Assembly (NCBI RefSeq): GCF_014217805.1
Contig: NZ_CP055156.1
Span: 3,354,585 to 3,418,584 of the forward strand
From: Adhaeribacter swui
GTDB lineage: Bacteria; Bacteroidota; Bacteroidia; Cytophagales; Hymenobacteraceae
Direction: 5' to 3'
Length of the DNA: 64,000 nucleotides
The translations under genes and the position numbers were made by a program. Shown in pieces: positions 38,858 to 57,020 of this stretch. Position 1 is the stretch's first letter. Every line of letters begins with the position of its first letter. Below the pieces are notes generated by a model. That model saw only the letters and a list, made by a program, of their open reading frames with translations, did no database searches and had not been told where the DNA came from.

Positions 38858-39316
38858 TTATAAAGGGCTTTTCTTCCAGTTTTTACCGCCTAATTCTTTG
38901 TATTTACTATCCTGCAACGGATACATCTGAATGGTGTTCAAGCTGGCTGGTAGGCTAGCTACAAAATGATCTGCTACTTGCAGGTAATCATTGCCTTCCA
39001 GGGAATTTTTTGTTACCAGGTTTTCCACTTCCCGATCATCATACAGATTGATAGTGCATTTCGTGCAATGTTCTTTTTTAAACTTATTAGCAAAACCCTG
39101 GAGAGAGGCAGAGTCGGTTGTTCCGGATTTAAGCAGTACGTAATAATTTTCGACGGCTGCGGTAGCCTTTATGCCTAAAATCTCATAGGAGCTTTGATCG
39201 AGCTTAGCAGACTCATGCGCTGCTGTTGCCTGGTTTTTTGCTTTATTATTCCCGTTACAGCTTGTGGCCGCACCAAAAGCAATCAGGATTACGAATAAAT
39301 AAGTGGTAGCTTTCAT
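38858..39316 (-). CDS. Small lipoprotein of unknown function
   Basis: 152 aa. The N-terminal signal with a lipobox-like AATSC (Cys20) predicts outer-membrane or periplasmic lipid anchoring. The mature part has two close cysteines in KEHCTKCTIN that could form a disulfide or bind metal; no family was recognised. The bshA terminator lies upstream, between this gene and bshA, so it is transcribed separately. Confidence 0.7.
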   Translation of the reverse strand: MKATTYLFVILIAFGAATSCNGNNKAKNQATAAHESAKLDQSSYEILGIKATAAVENYYVLLKSGTTDSASLQGFANKFKKEHCTKCTINLYDDREVENLVTKNSLEGNDYLQVADHFVASLPASLNTIQMYPLQDSKYKELGGKNWKKSPL

Positions 39317-50991: not shown

Positions 50992-51591
50992 AGCGGCAAA
51001 GGTAATGCGAGGTAAGATAGCATCCAAAAGCTTTTGCAAGCTAAGGGCGTAGTCTTCCTGGCCGGTACGAATTTCAAGGTCAGGATTTTGGGGCTCTTCA
51101 AAAGGCGCATCCAGGCCAGTAAAGTTCTTGATTTCGCCGTTCAGGGCTTTTTTGTACAAGCCTTTTACATCGCGCTGGGCGCATACTTCAAAAGGCGCAT
51201 TAATGTACACTTCGTAAAAATCAGTTGCACCGATAATGTTTTTCGCCATGCTCCGGATTTCGGCCGTTGGACTAATGAAAGAACAAATTGTTACTAAACC
51301 TGCATTTAAAAACAGCTTGGCTGTTTCAGCCGAACGGCGAATATTCTCCAGCCGGTCCGCATCCGAAAAGCCTAAATTGTTATTAATGCCGCTGCGTAAA
51401 TTATCGCCGTCGAGTAACTGGGTTAAGTGGCCGCGCTCGTGCAAGGCAAATTCCAGGCCTTTTGCCAAAGTACTTTTACCCGAACCGGATAAGCCTACCA
51501 TCCAGATAACGATGGCCCGTTGTCGTAGCAATTCTTCTTTACTTGCCCGCGTGAGCGTTTGATCGAAAATCGGGTGAATATTTTCTGCCAT
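50983..51591 (-). CDS. cysC: Adenylylsulfate kinase
   Basis: 202 aa kinase that phosphorylates APS to PAPS. P-loop GLSGSGKST near residues 33-41; DGDNLR and FISPTAEIRSMAKNI follow, as in CysC. First gene of the leftward cysC-cysD-cysN group and divergent from cysQ, so its promoter must be in 51592-51830; no cysteine-rich leader was found on that strand. Confidence 0.95.
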   Translation of the reverse strand: MAENIHPIFDQTLTRASKEELLRQRAIVIWMVGLSGSGKSTLAKGLEFALHERGHLTQLLDGDNLRSGINNNLGFSDADRLENIRRSAETAKLFLNAGLVTICSFISPTAEIRSMAKNIIGATDFYEVYINAPFEVCAQRDVKGLYKKALNGEIKNFTGLDAPFEEPQNPDLEIRTGQEDYALSLQKLLDAILPRITFAALG

Positions 51592-51776
51592 ATTCTTCTT
51601 GAAAAATTCGCGGCTAAATTAAGCGGTATTTTGGTAAGATGTTTAAAATTAATTTGAGAACTTAAAAATTAGCCGCTCCTTACACCGGTTCAAGTTCAGT
51701 AAAAATTAAATTTTTAAAATTTTACGTTTGATAAAACAGGTAAAAAGCTGCGGGGTTTATTTTTTAATGAGCCAGG

Positions 51777-51807
51777 CTTGGCGGCCATTTAAATCCGGTT
51801 ACTTTTG
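51777..51807 (+). promoter_or_regulatory. Bacteroidota-type promoter of cysQ
   Basis: TACTTTTG (TAnnTTTG) at 51800-51807, 23 bases before the cysQ ATG, with a weak TTGG about 20 bases further upstream. Confidence 0.5.
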
Positions 51808-51830
51808 CCTAAATTTTAAAAAACAGATTT

Positions 51831-52610
51831 ATGGCCGCGATAAATGTTTCCGCGATAATGCCCGACTTGTTACAAATAGCTAAAAAAGCCGGCGATGCCA
51901 TCATGGAGGTTTATAATCAACCGGCCAGCTTTACGCAGATAACTTTAAAAAGCGACCAGTCGCCGCTTACCCAAGCCGACCAGGCCGCCAACGATGTAAT
52001 TGCCGCCGGATTAGCTGCGTTAACCCCCGATATCCCGGTTTTATCCGAAGAAGGAAAAATGGTGCCCTACGAAGTGCGCCAGACCTGGCCCTTGTATTGG
52101 TGCGTTGACCCCCTGGATGGGACCAAAGAGTTTATCAGCCGCAACGGTGAGTTTACGGTAAACATTGCTTTAGTAGCAGGCACTACGCCCGTAGCCGGCG
52201 TTATTTATGCCCCCGTTACCAACGAGCTTTATTACACTAACGGCCAGGATGGCGCCTATAAAAAACAAGGTGACCAGGAAGTAGAAAAACTGGCAGTAAC
52301 CGGAAAAACAGAGAAATTAGTAGCCGTGAAAAGCCGCTCGCACGGAGCGCCGGAAGAAATTGCTTTTTTAAGCCAGTTTGCGGTTACCGACGAAGTACGC
52401 ATCGGGTCTTCTTTAAAATTTTGTTTAATCGCCGAAGGCAAAGCGCAACTGTATTTCCGGCATGGGCCTACCATGGAATGGGACACCGCCGCCGGGCACG
52501 CCATTTTGGCACAAGCCGGTGGCAAATTAACTAATCCCGACGGCGAGCCATTTACGTACAACAAGCCTTCGTTACTGAATGGCAGCTTTTTATGTTCGGG
52601 CTGGCAGTAA
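51831..52610 (+). CDS. cysQ: 3'(2'),5'-bisphosphate nucleotidase
   Basis: 259 aa inositol-monophosphatase-fold enzyme. It converts PAP to AMP, removing the inhibitory product of PAPS use. The metal motif is DPLDGTKEF near residues 88-96, ILSEEGKMV supplies the second metal Glu, and the late GPTMEWDTAAGHAIL is the C-terminal signature. Divergent from cysC. The cysM attenuator region starts within 45 bases of its stop. Confidence 0.94.
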   Translation: MAAINVSAIMPDLLQIAKKAGDAIMEVYNQPASFTQITLKSDQSPLTQADQAANDVIAAGLAALTPDIPVLSEEGKMVPYEVRQTWPLYWCVDPLDGTKEFISRNGEFTVNIALVAGTTPVAGVIYAPVTNELYYTNGQDGAYKKQGDQEVEKLAVTGKTEKLVAVKSRSHGAPEEIAFLSQFAVTDEVRIGSSLKFCLIAEGKAQLYFRHGPTMEWDTAAGHAILAQAGGKLTNPDGEPFTYNKPSLLNGSFLCSGWQ

Positions 52611-52650
52611 AAAACTTATAAAGTTTACGGCATTAATTTTGTTTAAATAA

Positions 52651-52681
52651 TTTGGTGCTTTGGTTTTGTTTTTTACCTTTG
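52651..52681 (+). promoter_or_regulatory. Promoter of the cys leader-cysM transcript
   Basis: TTTG at 52651-52654 and TACCTTTG (TAnnTTTG) at 52674-52681, 19 bases apart, the consensus spacing. Transcription would start near 52686, about 15 bases before the first leader ORF. Confidence 0.7.
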
Positions 52682-52700
52682 CCGCAAGTATAATTAGAAC

Positions 52701-52796
52701 ATGAAAACAAATATGACCTTTTCTGGTATTAACAATGCGCTGGCAGGTTGCTGTTGTGCGGCGTTTACGCTTCCGGAAAGGTTTGCTGTTATATAA
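52701..52796 (+). CDS. Cysteine-rich leader peptide 1 (attenuator)
   Basis: 31 codons, too short for routine gene calling. Residues 17-19 are three consecutive cysteines (TGC TGT TGT at 52749-52757). The 3' part of the ORF (CGGAAAGG, 52774-52781) can pair with CCTTTCCG at 52823-52830, which is also the 5' strand of the following terminator. Stalling at the Cys codons would leave that segment free and prevent termination; full translation would mask it. This is the logic of amino-acid attenuators such as trp or his. There is no RBS of GGAGG type, as usual in this phylum. Confidence 0.75.
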   Translation: MKTNMTFSGINNALAGCCCAAFTLPERFAVI

Positions 52797-52819
52797 AATT
52801 TAAAAAAACAAGAATATAT

Positions 52820-52851
52820 AAGCCTTTCCGAAACCAGGAGAGGCTTTTTTT
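52820..52851 (+). terminator. Attenuator terminator 1
   Basis: 10-bp stem with one G-U: AAGCCTTTCC (52820-52829) / GGAGAGGCTT (52837-52846), 7-base loop, T-run to 52850. It lies 24 bases after leader ORF 1 and competes with an 8-11-bp antiterminator formed with 52774-52784. Confidence 0.88.
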
Positions 52852-52875
52852 GTTTATATACTAAAAGAAATTAAA

Positions 52876-52962
52876 ATGAATAAACAATTCCAGATTAACC
52901 ATGCGGCGTGTTGCTGTTGCTGTGCTTGCCCCTGGGGAAGCCTTGATGCGGCTGCGTGTTAA
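52876..52962 (+). CDS. Cysteine-rich leader peptide 2 (attenuator)
   Basis: 28 codons with seven cysteines: five in a row (52909-52923), one more after an Ala (52927-52929) and one as the last residue (52957-52959). Codons alternate TGT/TGC. The segment 52934-52948, just after the Cys run, pairs at 14 of 15 positions (two G-U) with 52980-52994, overlapping the 5' arm of terminator 2. It starts 25 bases after terminator 1, so it is in series with leader 1. Alternative reading: a small metal-binding peptide; position and paired terminators favour a leader. Confidence 0.8.
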   Translation: MNKQFQINHAACCCCCACPWGSLDAAAC

Positions 52963-52983
52963 TTTTTGGATGCAACTTTCATC

Positions 52984-53018
52984 AAGCCTTTCCTGGGAAA
53001 CCCGGAAAGGCTTTTTTA
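52984..53018 (+). terminator. Attenuator terminator 2
   Basis: Perfect 10-bp stem AAGCCTTTCC (52984-52993) / GGAAAGGCTT (53004-53013), extended by GGG/CCC around an AAA loop with one bulged T, then six T. Its stem is nearly the same sequence as terminator 1, indicating duplication. It lies 46 bases before cysM. Confidence 0.92.
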
Positions 53019-53063
53019 TTTCTTTTTGCATAAATTTTTCTGCTGACTTAAAATTTTAAAAAT

Positions 53064-53996
53064 ATGTTACTCACCGCCGAAACGCAAGATTTACAAGAGC
53101 AACTAACTACTTTAAGTTCTTTTATTGGCAATACGCCGTTATTTCCGATTACCCGGGCTTACAGCAAGCCGGGCGTTAAAATTTACGCCAAACTAGAGTG
53201 GCAACAACTAGGCGGCAGCGTAAAAGCCCGGCCTGCTTTCCGGATAATTCAGGATGCGGTAAAAAGCGGTAGATTGCAACCCGGCCAGTCTTTATTGGAT
53301 GCTTCGAGTGGTAACACGGCTATTGCTTACGCCGCCATTGGCGCCGCTACGCAAATACCTGTTACCATCTGCTTGCCCGAAAATGCCTCGGAAGAACGGA
53401 AAACTTTATTAAAAGCGTTCGGCGCTAATATCATCTATACCTCGCGTTTTGGTTCTACGGATGAGGCTCAGGAAATTGCCAAGCAGTTAAATTCGGATTA
53501 CCCCGACCGGTATTTTTACGCGGACCAATACGGTAATCAAAGTAACTGGCAAGCGCATTACCACACTACGGCTAACGAAATCTTCCGGCAAACCAAAGGC
53601 GAAATCACCCACTTTGTGGCGGGTTTAGGCACCACCGGTACATTTACCGGTACCAGCCGCAAGTTGAAAGAGTTAAATCCGGAGATTGAATTAATATCGT
53701 TGCAACCCGATGCGGCCATGCACGGCCTGGAAGGGTGGAAGCACCTGGAAACCGCGCGGGTACCAAAAATTTACGATGCTACTATTGCCAACCAAAACTT
53801 GGCGATTGATACCTACGAAGCTTTTGATTTAATTCAGAAAGTAGCGCAAAAAGAAGGTTTACTGGTTAGCCCATCAGCCGCCGCCAATTTAGCTGGTGCC
53901 ATTAAAGTAGCCGAGAGCATCGACGAAGGCGTAATCGTAACGGTTTTCCCGGACAATGCCGAGAAGTACGCCGAAGTATTAAAATCGTTGTTCTAG
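53064..53996 (+). CDS. cysM: Cysteine synthase, CysM type
   Basis: 310 aa PLP enzyme making cysteine by beta-replacement on activated serine. The PLP Lys is in LGGSVKARPAF; the substrate loop is DASSGNTAIAYA, and the phosphate loop is VAGLGTTGTFTGTS. It is followed by Mec-, CysO- and MoeZ-like genes, the arrangement of mycobacterial CysM, which uses O-phosphoserine and CysO thiocarboxylate. O-acetylserine plus sulfide cannot be excluded from sequence. Two cysteine attenuators precede it; the coding start is AAATATG after a long A/T stretch. Confidence 0.92.
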   Translation: MLLTAETQDLQEQLTTLSSFIGNTPLFPITRAYSKPGVKIYAKLEWQQLGGSVKARPAFRIIQDAVKSGRLQPGQSLLDASSGNTAIAYAAIGAATQIPVTICLPENASEERKTLLKAFGANIIYTSRFGSTDEAQEIAKQLNSDYPDRYFYADQYGNQSNWQAHYHTTANEIFRQTKGEITHFVAGLGTTGTFTGTSRKLKELNPEIELISLQPDAAMHGLEGWKHLETARVPKIYDATIANQNLAIDTYEAFDLIQKVAQKEGLLVSPSAAANLAGAIKVAESIDEGVIVTVFPDNAEKYAEVLKSLF

Positions 53997-54163: not shown

Positions 54164-54601
54164 ATGAAACTACAACTCACCGAAACTGCCCACCGCCTGA
54201 TTCAGGAACATGCCACGGAAATATACCCAGACGAATGCTGCGGCTTTTTGTACGGGAATGAAACGGACGTGCGCCTAGTGCAGGAAGCGGTACCGGTAAC
54301 CAACAGCAAAGACGGCGACAAACGCCGTCGCTTCGAGATTTCGCCGGTAGATTACATGCGAGCCGAAAAATACGCCCTGGAAAATAACACTAATTTACTA
54401 GGCGTGTACCACTCGCATCCCGATCATCCGGCCCGGCCTTCGGAGCACGATTTAAACCAGGCAGTACCGTACTTTTCTTACATTATTGTATCGGTGCGGC
54501 AAGGCCAAGTAGCGGACCTTACTTCCTGGCAATTAAACGAAGCCGGTCAGTTCGAACAAGAATCTATCTTACAAAACGAAAATCATATTCAGAATACCTA
54601 A
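54164..54601 (+). CDS. JAMM/MPN metalloprotease, Mec-like
   Basis: 145 aa zinc protease of the JAMM fold. The signature is complete: Glu in DECCGFLYG (about residue 24-25) and HSHPDHPARPSEHD (H-S-H-P-x6-S-x2-D). In Mycobacterium, Mec releases cysteine from the CysO-Cys adduct, and other JAMM proteins trim C-terminal tails of ThiS-like carriers. Here it sits one base before the CysO-like gene, so both roles are plausible. Normal length for Mec. Confidence 0.9.
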   Translation: MKLQLTETAHRLIQEHATEIYPDECCGFLYGNETDVRLVQEAVPVTNSKDGDKRRRFEISPVDYMRAEKYALENNTNLLGVYHSHPDHPARPSEHDLNQAVPYFSYIIVSVRQGQVADLTSWQLNEAGQFEQESILQNENHIQNT

Positions 54602-54602
54602 A

Positions 54603-54881
54603 ATGGCAAAAATAATAATTCCTACGCCCCTCCGAAAATTTACCGGTAACCAGGCCACCATCGAAACCAATGGCTCCAACGTGCTGGAAAGTCTACAAAG
54701 TTTAGCGGAAACCCATCCGGAAATTAAAAAACATATTTTCGATGATGCCGGACAAGTGCGTAAGTTTGTGCGCTTATACCTCGGCGACGAAGACATTAAA
54801 GCTTTGCAAAACGAGCAAACTGCCGTGCAGGACAATTCGGTAATCAGTATTATTCCGGCCATTGCCGGTGGTATTAACTAG
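54603..54881 (+). CDS. Sulfur-carrier protein, ThiS/MoaD fold, CysO-like
   Basis: 92 aa ubiquitin-like carrier. It starts AKIIIPTPLRKFTGNQATIE and ends IIPAIAGGIN. The functional Gly-Gly is followed by two residues (Ile-Asn), so unlike mycobacterial CysO it is not at the C terminus; trimming would be needed before thiocarboxylation, and a JAMM protease is encoded directly upstream. Its position between mec and a MoeZ-like gene is that of CysO. It begins one base after mec. Confidence 0.92.
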   Translation: MAKIIIPTPLRKFTGNQATIETNGSNVLESLQSLAETHPEIKKHIFDDAGQVRKFVRLYLGDEDIKALQNEQTAVQDNSVISIIPAIAGGIN

Positions 54882-54975: not shown

Positions 54976-56118
54976 ATGGTAACTTTTAATAAAGAAGAAT
55001 TAGAGCGGTACAGCCGCCATTTAATTATACCCGAATTTAACATTGAAGGCCAGCGCCGCTTAAAAGCCGCCAAAGTTTTGGTAGTTGGTACCGGTGGTTT
55101 AGGCAGCCCCTTGTTGTTGTATTTAACCGCCGCCGGCGTAGGTACCATTGGTATCCTGGACTTTGATGTGGTAGACGACAGCAACCTGCAGCGCCAGGTT
55201 TTATTTAGCGTTTCTGATGTGGGCCGGCCAAAAGTAGAAGCCGCCCGGGACCGTTTAGCTGCCTTAAACCCGTACGTAAACTTTATCGTGCACAACGAGC
55301 GCCTAACTTCCGAAAATGCGCTGGATATTATAAAAGACTACGACTTAGTAGCCGATGGTACCGATAATTTTCCGACCCGTTATTTAGTAAACGATGCTTG
55401 TGTTATCTTAAATAAACCCAATGTTTACGGTTCTATTTTCCGTTTCGAAGGGCAGGTTTCGGTATTTAACTACACCGATGCCGAAGGAAACAAAGGGCCT
55501 AATTACCGCGATTTATTCCCAACGCCACCACCGCCCGGTTTAGTGCCCAGCTGCGCTGAAGGCGGCGTATTGGGCGTACTACCCGGTATTATTGGTTCTT
55601 TGCAAGCTAACGAAGTGATCAAAGTATTAACTGGCGTAGGCGAGCCATTATCCGGTCGGTTGTTTTTGTTTGATGCCGCGGTGTTCGAAACCCGGGTATT
55701 AAAAGTGCACAAAGATCCGGATAACCAACCAGTAACCGAACTAATCGACTACGAATTCTTCTGCGGTATTGGTGGCGATGATGAAGACGAAAAAGATAAA
55801 GTAAAAGAAATTTCGGTAAGCGACTTACACGCGTGGCAGGAAAACCACACCGACTTCCAATTAATTGATGTGCGCGAGCCTTACGAATACGAAATTGCTA
55901 ACTTGCACGGCGAATTAATTCCATTGGCTGAAGTAGAAGCCGCCATTGATAAAATTGCTTCCGATAAAAACGTGGTAGTACACTGCCGTTCCGGTGTTCG
56001 GAGCGCTAAAGCTATTGCGGCCCTAGAGAAAAAATACGGTTTTAAAAACCTGTATAACTTAAAAGGCGGCATCCTGGCCTGGGCCAACGAAATTGACCCT
56101 ACTATGGCGAAATATTAG
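54976..56118 (+). CDS. MoeZ/MoeB-like E1 enzyme with rhodanese domain
   Basis: 380 aa. Residues 1-245 form an adenylyltransferase of the ThiF/MoeB class: P-loop VVGTGGLGSPLL, DFDVVDDSNLQRQ, and an active-site Cys in VPSCAEGGVLG. Residues about 265-378 form a rhodanese domain with the persulfide Cys in VVHCRSGVRSAK. No pair of CxxC zinc motifs is visible, as in MoeZ. It would adenylate the Gly-Gly tail of the carrier and then give it sulfur. A 94-base spacer separates it from the carrier gene. Confidence 0.93.
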   Translation: MVTFNKEELERYSRHLIIPEFNIEGQRRLKAAKVLVVGTGGLGSPLLLYLTAAGVGTIGILDFDVVDDSNLQRQVLFSVSDVGRPKVEAARDRLAALNPYVNFIVHNERLTSENALDIIKDYDLVADGTDNFPTRYLVNDACVILNKPNVYGSIFRFEGQVSVFNYTDAEGNKGPNYRDLFPTPPPPGLVPSCAEGGVLGVLPGIIGSLQANEVIKVLTGVGEPLSGRLFLFDAAVFETRVLKVHKDPDNQPVTELIDYEFFCGIGGDDEDEKDKVKEISVSDLHAWQENHTDFQLIDVREPYEYEIANLHGELIPLAEVEAAIDKIASDKNVVVHCRSGVRSAKAIAALEKKYGFKNLYNLKGGILAWANEIDPTMAKY

Positions 56119-56271: not shown

Positions 56272-56336
56272 TCTGTGGACTGGCGTCTATGGACTAAATT
56301 CTAAACCGTGGTCTATGGACCATGGACTATGGACTA
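56272..56336. repeat. TGGTCTATGGACCATGGAC repeat upstream of cysH
   Basis: Three to four units of a GGACTATGGAC-like motif (GTCTGTGGACTGGCGTCTATG, then GTGGTCTATGGACCATGGAC) run up to 7 bases before the cysH start. An in-frame ATG at 56322 is inside the repeat. Confidence 0.7.
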
Positions 56337-56342
56337 AAAACA

Positions 56343-57020
56343 ATGACCGAGTTTGAACAATTAACCGAAGACATCCGCCAGGATTTAGATGCGTACAAAA
56401 CGCGCGGTTTAAAAATATTTGCGTCGTCGTCGTTACAGACGAATAGCATGCCTTTGCTGCACATTATCAGCCAGGTAGCACCCGAAACCCCTATTTACTT
56501 TTTAAATACGGGCTACCATTTTCCGGAAACCCTGGAGTTCCGGCAGCAGGTAAAAGATTTACTGGGCTTAAACATTACCGATTTGTTTTCGGCGGTGCCC
56601 AAGTACCAGCAACGCGACGCTTCTGGTCGCTTGCTCTTTACCTCTGATCCGGATTATTGCTGCTATTTAAACAAAATTCAGCCTTTAGAGCCCATATTGG
56701 CCAGCCACGATGTTTGGATCAGCGGCGTACGAGGCGACCAAAGCAAGGTGCGCGCCCAGATGAAGCGCGAAGAAAAAGCCCCGAATGGGGTATTGCGTTA
56801 CCACCCGATGCTGGGCTGGACCAGCAAAATGGTGTACGATTACATCCGGTTACATAAATTACCCAAGCATCCGCTCGAAGGGGAAGGATACGTGAGTATT
56901 GGTTGCGAGCCTTGCACCCGCAAAATAGACGTAGATGCTTTACTAGACGACCGCAACGGTCGCTGGTTTGGCATGAACAAAACCGAATGCGGTTTACATA
57001 CCCAATTAATCGCCAAATAA
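56343..57020 (+). CDS. cysH: Adenylyl-sulfate reductase, CysH type with 4Fe-4S cysteines
   Basis: 225 aa PAPS/APS reductase. The PP-loop-like region is IFASSSLQTNSMPLL. Cys-Cys in DYCCYLN plus CxxC in IGCEPCTRK is the four-Cys [4Fe-4S] pattern of APS-type reductases; the catalytic Cys is in TECGLH near the C terminus. It reduces activated sulfate to sulfite with thioredoxin. The ATG at 56343 is preferred: the earlier in-frame ATG (56322) lies inside a repeat. No sulfite reductase gene is seen in the window. Confidence 0.93.
   Translation: MTEFEQLTEDIRQDLDAYKTRGLKIFASSSLQTNSMPLLHIISQVAPETPIYFLNTGYHFPETLEFRQQVKDLLGLNITDLFSAVPKYQQRDASGRLLFTSDPDYCCYLNKIQPLEPILASHDVWISGVRGDQSKVRAQMKREEKAPNGVLRYHPMLGWTSKMVYDYIRLHKLPKHPLEGEGYVSIGCEPCTRKIDVDALLDDRNGRWFGMNKTECGLHTQLIAK

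Follow-up and report, generated by a model that had tools for sequence, protein, structure and literature searches.

Twin cysteine-codon leaders before a cysM-mec-cysO-moeZ operon in Bacteroidota are very probably a cysteine-starvation switch

The leaders of the trp, his and ilv operons are the classical ribosome-mediated transcription attenuators. For cysteine, Canestrari 2020 is said to describe poly-Cys short open reading frames (ORFs) in mycobacteria and Actinobacteria. The CysM and Mec steps belong to the mycobacterial CysO route. That route to cysteine, with MoeZ activation, is described in PMC3227635, and ribosome-mediated transcription attenuators in PMC1183508 (papers given by PMC number are cited, here and below, from excerpts of their text). 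Poly-Cys short ORFs before cysteine/sulfur genes of mycobacteria and other Actinobacteria appear in PMC4633059 and PMC1262725, while two transcriptome papers on Flavobacterium and Bacteroides (PMC9723704, PMC7366714) speak of leader-peptide attenuation, in their excerpts, in general terms only.

Like the actinobacterial ORFs, the locus reported here has Cys codons in a run within a short frame upstream of cysteine/sulfur genes. In contrast to the Mycobacterium regions, which in the excerpts of PMC1262725 are without conserved terminator hairpins, it and its relatives have terminators, and the window thus differs from a mycobacterial-type control that works without an intrinsic terminator. The mycobacterial control is called translation attenuation in the available part of PMC13236596, and the genes concerned differ from ours. 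The uORFC-8-2 motif before cysS of Rhodobacterales combines tandem Cys codons in a short ORF with an intrinsic terminator; it differs in having two Cys codons, a tRNA synthetase gene and an alphaproteobacterial host, and the excerpts of PMC8632094 do not speak of a doubled form.

An earlier note on the window, by which we mean the whole 64 kb stretch of DNA that was analysed, had claimed two ORFs of 31 and 28 codons with the Cys runs CCC and CCCCCAC, each with an intrinsic terminator behind it. Both ORFs are present, and so are both hairpins and both U tracts (Table 1), the first terminator being detected by a terminator scan and the second by our hairpin rule. ATG ORFs of at most 60 aa that hold CCC number three in the whole window, both strands included; two of them, leaders 1 and 2, are followed by a terminator, and the third (39215-39298) is not. 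In the whole genome the pattern TGYTGYTGYTGY, which requires four Cys codons and which three-Cys leaders would escape, occurs at 67 places, 2 of them inside leader 2. At the 65 others, all covered, no Cys-run ORF was backed by a terminator at 150 nt or less from its Cys run; at one of them (L134) a weak hairpin of -10.3 kcal/mol lies 91 nt past the stop codon, beyond that limit. Before the divergent cysC no Cys-run frame was found in 51591-51831 on either strand.

Table 1. Features of the leader region and of the genes behind it, in window coordinates.
Feature	Coordinates	Strand	Description
Probable promoter	52651-52681	+	TTTG-N19-TACCTTTG; pattern scan, Bacteroidota-type -33/-7
Leader peptide ORF 1	52701-52796	+	31 codons, ATG start, MKTNMTFSGINNALAGCCCAAFTLPERFAVI, Cys run CCC
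Leader 1 Cys codons	52749-52757	+	TGCTGTTGT (TGC TGT TGT)
Antiterminator arm, module 1	52774-52784	+	CGGAAAGGTTT; partner 52820-52830
Intrinsic terminator 1, with U tract	52820-52853	+	Hairpin AAGCCTTTCCGAAACCAGGAGAGGCTT at 52820-52846, then TTTTTGTT
Leader peptide ORF 2	52876-52962	+	28 codons, ATG start, MNKQFQINHAACCCCCACPWGSLDAAAC, Cys run CCCCCAC
Leader 2 Cys codons	52909-52929	+	TGTTGCTGTTGCTGTGCTTGC; five Cys, then Ala (sixth codon), Cys
Antiterminator arm, module 2	52932-52948	+	Partner 52980-52996
Intrinsic terminator 2, with U tract	52984-53021	+	Hairpin AAGCCTTTCCTGGGAAACCCGGAAAGGCTT at 52984-53013, then TTTTATTT
cysM, PLP-dependent cysteine synthase, CysM kind	53064-53996	+	NCBIfam TIGR01138 best match, 297 bits (below cut-off of 394); Pfam PALP
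JAB/JAMM peptidase, Mec-like	54164-54601	+	Pfam Prok-JAB; NCBIfam desampylase below cut-off
ThiS-like sulfur carrier, CysO-like	54603-54881	+	C-terminal end AIAGGIN; Pfam ThiS; NCBIfam SAMP1 below cut-off
MoeZ-like ThiF-rhodanese, sulfur carrier activation	54976-56118	+	MoeB subfamily NF004281 above cut-off; Pfam ThiF, Rhodanese
cysH, (phospho)adenylyl-sulfate reductase	56322-57020	+	NCBIfam NF002537 above cut-off

Upstream of both leaders, the promoter that had been claimed as a fit to the phylum consensus holds up as a pattern: TTTG-N17-23-TAnnTTTG has a single plus-strand match in 52600-53063, and 6 matches in the window on both strands. By the -33/-7 consensus of Bacteroidota this stretch is a probable promoter, and its TTTTTTACCTTTGCC part is invariant across four congeners.

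Downstream of the leaders, the predicted functions are those of a cysteine synthase, a JAB peptidase, a GG-bearing ThiS-like carrier and a MoeZ-like activator, so that the operon, as annotated, is cysM-mec(JAB)-cysO(ThiS-like)-moeZ, the gene set of the CysO/CysM/Mec sulfur-carrier route to cysteine. NCBIfam MoeZ is the best match for the last of these genes, yet under its cut-off. Further sulfur genes surround the operon, with cysQ upstream of cysM and cysC, cysD and cysN divergent. In a set of 86 CysM orthologs (at least 55% identity; the best 80 of 160 CysM relatives plus six loci from whole genomes), same-strand JAB, ThiS and MoeZ genes follow cysM in 82, 80 and 77 loci, respectively. JAB is absent at four, three of which have less than 200 nt of contig remaining; L006, with 1.5 kb present downstream, is without JAB, ThiS and MoeZ genes and also without a leader. 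In 62 of 80 loci the CysO-like carrier extends 1-6 residues beyond its GG (exactly two residues in 41), and in 4 it stops at a plain GG; in the other 14 GG is absent from the last eight residues, maybe through frame or alignment faults. The Gly-Gly end looks masked and might have to be trimmed first, possibly by the adjoining JAB peptidase.

Each module was claimed to hold an alternative pairing that competes with its terminator. In module 1 the 8 bp between 52774-52781 and 52823-52830 are indeed all Watson-Crick, and the pairing can be extended to 11 pairs with one G-U; the duplex reaches -14.8 kcal/mol, against a shuffled mean of -7.6. In module 2 the count of 14 pairs in 15 for 52934-52948 with 52980-52994 stands only if G-U pairs are admitted, there being 12 Watson-Crick pairs, 2 G-U pairs and 1 mismatch. 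The stretch 52930-52998, which a stalled ribosome would leave free, folds to the antiterminator (-30.3 kcal/mol, z -4.8), and when leader 2 is folded whole the minimum-energy structure contains the terminator. Leader 1 folded whole without a ribosome prefers the antiterminator form, and its off state would therefore depend on the ribosome.

Taking these elements together, we consider it highly likely that two ribosome-mediated attenuators, one behind the other and both sensing charged tRNA-Cys, separate a single promoter from the cysM-mec-cysO-moeZ operon, and the twin leaders are very probably a cysteine-starvation switch. With ample Cys-tRNA, the ribosome would pass the Cys codons and cover the antiterminator arm (arm 2), so that the terminator forms and transcription stops; with scarce Cys-tRNA it would stall on the Cys codons and leave arm 2 free; pairing of this arm with the 5' side of the terminator hairpin would let polymerase read on. 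Polymerase would then reach the second module, which poses the same question, and read-through, as the product of two probabilities, should show less leakage and a steeper response. Translation of the leaders, stalling, use of the single promoter and the multiplicative effect are what we infer from this layout.

A look at related genomes, suggested in the earlier note as a check, bore out its prediction. Of eight genomes of the genus that were searched, four hold a close CysM (100, 97, 96 and 95% identity), and in all four the two Cys runs, the two terminators and the two alternative pairings are retained. The run of leader 1 reads CCC or CCCC in these congeners, and the Cys-codon DNA of leader 2 is identical in all of them. 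When the four are aligned, the spacers drift, whereas conservation marks out the -7 stretch of the promoter, the codons for Cys, GGAAAGG, the two CCTTTC arms and the U tracts; the arm CGGAAAGGTTT of module 1 is invariant. In a fifth genome of the genus (G002) the match to the leader DNA is limited to 38 query bases at terminator 2.

We then counted full modules, defined as a Cys leader plus a terminator of -9 kcal/mol or better within 1300 nt upstream of cysM. At least one was found in 73 of the 86 loci of the set (the best 80 of 160 plus 6): one in 49 and two in 24. Of the 13 without a module, two lie on contigs with less than 200 nt upstream (L041, L077), four are Balneolota loci with a Cys leader and no qualifying terminator (L084, L087, L095, L096), and seven have no Cys leader within 1300 nt upstream (L006, L052, L083, L093, L094, L107, L110); in L107 two Cys-run ORFs do occur farther out, at 3.1 and 4.4 kb. 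In L059, L073, L075, L088 and L103 the leaders lie about 750-1130 nt upstream of cysM. These counts run over all loci, near relatives (the four congeners included) not being independent, and single module calls are possibly wrong: L097 has an irregular terminator, in L046 100 nt separate the second terminator from its leader, and the modules of L086 overlap.

That TG-rich sequence should simply fall close to ordinary terminators is an idea to which the 67 TGYTGYTGYTGY places in the genome lend something. Counting strict leaders (ATG Cys-cluster ORFs within 450 nt upstream) in the 84 of 86 orthologs with at least 370 nt upstream, we found them in 64, with two leaders in 16, against a mean of 0.60 and a maximum of 3 of 84 in 50 shuffles; there were none on the 84 reverse strands and none at 24 distant CysM homologs (33-39% identity). 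Among runs of at least four identical residues in short ATG ORFs of these 84 loci, Cys accounts for 58, Leu for 18, Val for 2 and Arg for 1. The control stretches downstream of cysM yielded 2 modules in 583 kb, both strands summed. With shuffles, reverse strands, distant homologs and downstream stretches all near zero, chance is practically negligible as an explanation. One of the control modules, in L059, consists of a Cys-run ORF and a terminator (MIQYTQNMMCCCCCQPRQPDSYWCR) downstream of cysM, and it may be genuine and belong to another Cys-controlled gene.

Two genome-wide patterns and one contig deserve mention here. GGAAAGG-N20-50-AGCCTTTCC-N3-14-GGAAAGGCTTTT matched 0 of 395 genomes of the phylum, the own genome included; since even the modules of the window deviate from this exact pattern, the result is uninformative on absence. 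A looser GGAAAGG-type pattern had window module 1 as its sole match in the own genome. The contig of L090 is labelled as a Gammaproteobacteria MAG, carries the cysM-mec-cysO-moeZ operon with a Cys leader and takes a tree position beside the window's clade, and it is probably mis-binned.

For each leader we computed the energy of the duplex that the segment past its last Cys codon can form with the terminator's 5' arm, with 200 dinucleotide shuffles per leader. The set comprised 88 of 97 leaders, the second call of L033 (an overlapping frame), the first call of L090 and leaders without a terminator being dropped. Pairing reached p<0.05 in 53 of the 88 (about 4 expected) and p<0.01 in 26, while in the other 35 there was no significant arm-2 pairing on its own; in L005, which has the same gene order, both modules pair worse than the mean of their own shuffles. 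Own arms averaged -11.69 kcal/mol; when arms were exchanged among loci, 200 permutations gave a mean of -9.41 (sd 0.24) and a best value of -10.09, and the difference persisted in the 35 arms without CCTTTC (-9.97 against -7.60 kcal/mol, sd 0.39), so variants of the stem (CCTCACC, CCATTCC, CCCTTCC) tend to be matched by changes in the arm behind the Cys codons. By number of continuous pairs the excess is only moderate, at least 7 being reached in 53 of 88 leaders with their own arms and in 36.5 on average (48 at most) with swapped arms, because CCTTTCC is common to many arms. The ORFs, Cys runs, terminators and alternative pairings are conserved before the operon, and the pairing, which is exclusive with the terminator, is kept by co-variation, more weakly so by the continuous-pair count.

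The claim that stalling frees the antiterminator arm is also in keeping with the geometry. Taking a ribosome footprint from 21 nt before to 10 nt after the stop codon end, the arm would lie fully past a ribosome whose A site holds the first Cys codon in all 53 supported leaders, and would be overlapped by a ribosome at the leader stop codon in 46 and outside it in 7. A trp-type 1:2 protector, that is, pairing of the leader from its start to the last Cys codon with arm 2, is not general (p<0.05 in 9 of 62, p<0.5 in 30 of 62); such a stem is not known to be required in all ribosome-mediated attenuators.

The same data bear on the proposal that the ORFs yield genuine small proteins, rich in Cys (for metal, persulfide or redox binding) and working in trans, to which the terminators are unrelated. 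Place and Cys richness of the ORFs are conserved across many families, as such proteins would have it, and at two loci inspected a peroxiredoxin gene lies between leader and cysM. Beyond the Cys run, however, the peptide is conserved by eye only among near relatives and varies in length; the conserved feature is the complementarity of the DNA to the terminator arm, and by the hairpin rule a terminator stands behind 89 of 97 leaders (none behind the other 8), which makes small proteins a highly improbable account. The peroxiredoxin genes (Pfam AhpC-TSA and 1-cysPrx_C) are at L073:1304-1966 and L075:4282-4944, between a tandem Cys attenuator and cysM, where the switch may also govern a peroxide defence gene.

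Attenuation could also run through translation or Rho-dependent termination, with no role for these intrinsic terminators, as mycobacterial Cys leaders are described or proposed to do. Five Balneolota cysM leaders (L084, L087, L095, L096, L097) end in CCCC(S/R) at the stop codon, four of them with the DNA TGTAGCTA; in four of the five no terminator passes the rule, and in four a TTACCG/CGGTAA-like hairpin, seen by eye, follows just after, without a U tract. These leaders may perhaps be another way of reading the same cysteine signal. The pattern TGYTGYTGYTGTAGCTAR was present in 8 of 395 genomes of the phylum, half of the 8 belonging to a single genus; its reversed control matched 3. For the window and for the loci that make up the 73 of 86, hairpin and U tract do stand behind the leader; the window's second hairpin leaves about 50 nt between its end and the cysM start codon, which it does not cover, and arm 2 tracks the hairpin. 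A mechanism that bypasses the intrinsic terminators is therefore very unlikely here, and transcription attenuation at both hairpins stays our preferred reading.

It can further be asked whether both modules work or whether one is a decaying or neutral duplicate. One module evidently suffices at most loci (49 of the 73 with a module), and window module 1 has only three Cys codons. Against decay stand the two intact modules of all four congeners and the history of the tandem state: at least 12 changes between the single and the double state are needed on the CysM tree (a quick tree, weakly forked, with 28 of 85 inner branches below 80 support; L041 and L077, with less than 200 nt upstream, entered without a state, and two of the four outgroup rows were used), so that the tandem state was gained or lost many times and is still common. 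Of the 24 tandem loci, moreover, 19 have the longer Cys run in the second module, 2 have the shorter one there and 3 have runs of equal length (sign test p ~0.0002, loci taken as independent), which random decay would not be expected to give. Grouped into 13 clades by ourselves, the second run is longer in 12 and shorter in 1; the median run is 4 Cys in the first module and 5 in the second, and the congeners follow the trend with 3-4 and then 5. This bias suggests that the order of the modules matters, and a single working module is quite unlikely.

Cys-run frames also occur elsewhere in the genus. The own genome has a second Cys-run leader (MKNFLIISFLQTNNCCCCS), with a promoter-like match TACTTTTG, at L176:3144-3203 on the minus strand (G000:C3, about 4202643-4202702). 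It precedes a pyridine nucleotide-disulfide oxidoreductase, which we take to be ferredoxin-reductase-like, and a ferredoxin, with a SufR-like regulator and a SufA/IscA-type gene nearby; no terminator follows this leader by the hairpin rule. In the L179-L185 set, three congeners have CCCS, CCS and CCS versions at this locus, with the DNA TGTAGCTA, and three further genomes of the genus have Cys-run reading frames before it whose starts were not seen. As Cys-run frames stand also before the ferredoxin-reductase-like/ferredoxin pair, cysteine attenuation may govern a regulon. The broadest reading, to which we give roughly even chances, is a phylum-wide design of two checkpoints, a weaker sensor followed by a stronger one, that evolved repeatedly as a multiplicative cysteine switch of very low leakage, with cysteine attenuation perhaps regulon-wide.

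The element is specific and co-varying, with a likely signal and a named operon, and could be tested at once. If the reading is true, the sulfur-carrier route to cysteine gains a regulator, and the natural single- and double-module versions would allow the effect of a second attenuator to be measured. The leader set could also seed a covariance model, seemingly absent from Rfam 15. No gathering-level Rfam match was found in the window; at E up to 1, 52600-53120 gives SNORD124 and rli40, both far under their gathering scores, and ten related loci give one SAM riboswitch (RF00162, 78.5 bits, L045:383-487, minus strand), about 4.5 kb from cysM.

The earlier note had held tandem Cys-run attenuators to be undescribed in Bacteroidota, and we likewise found, among the matches listed from the open-access literature, which most subscription journals lie outside, neither a Cys attenuator in Bacteroidota nor a pair of Cys leaders for the same signal; the supplementary list of structured 5' regions of PMC9723704 could include a Cys leader. 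A doubled leader is known from Salmonella mgtCBR, where, as in our window, two leader ORFs in one leader mRNA control transcription, an arrangement called a singular example in the available part of PMC3641672. There the two ORFs answer different signals, ATP and proline, whereas both of ours carry Cys codons. Compared with the mycobacterial CysO route (PMC3227635, in excerpts), the gene set of cysM, JAB peptidase, ThiS-like carrier and MoeZ is the same; unlike it, the Bacteroidota cluster stands behind Cys leaders, and its carrier mostly extends beyond GG. With trp, his and ilv the locus has in common a short leader ORF rich in codons for the end product, an intrinsic terminator before the first gene and an exclusive antiterminator, all before a biosynthetic operon; it departs from them in that Cys would be sensed, in the lack of a general 1:2 protector, in the two modules of 24 of 86 loci and in its place in Bacteroidota. 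By its sequence, the mechanism would be of the trp class, and what is apparently new is the phylum, the operon and the same-signal tandem form.
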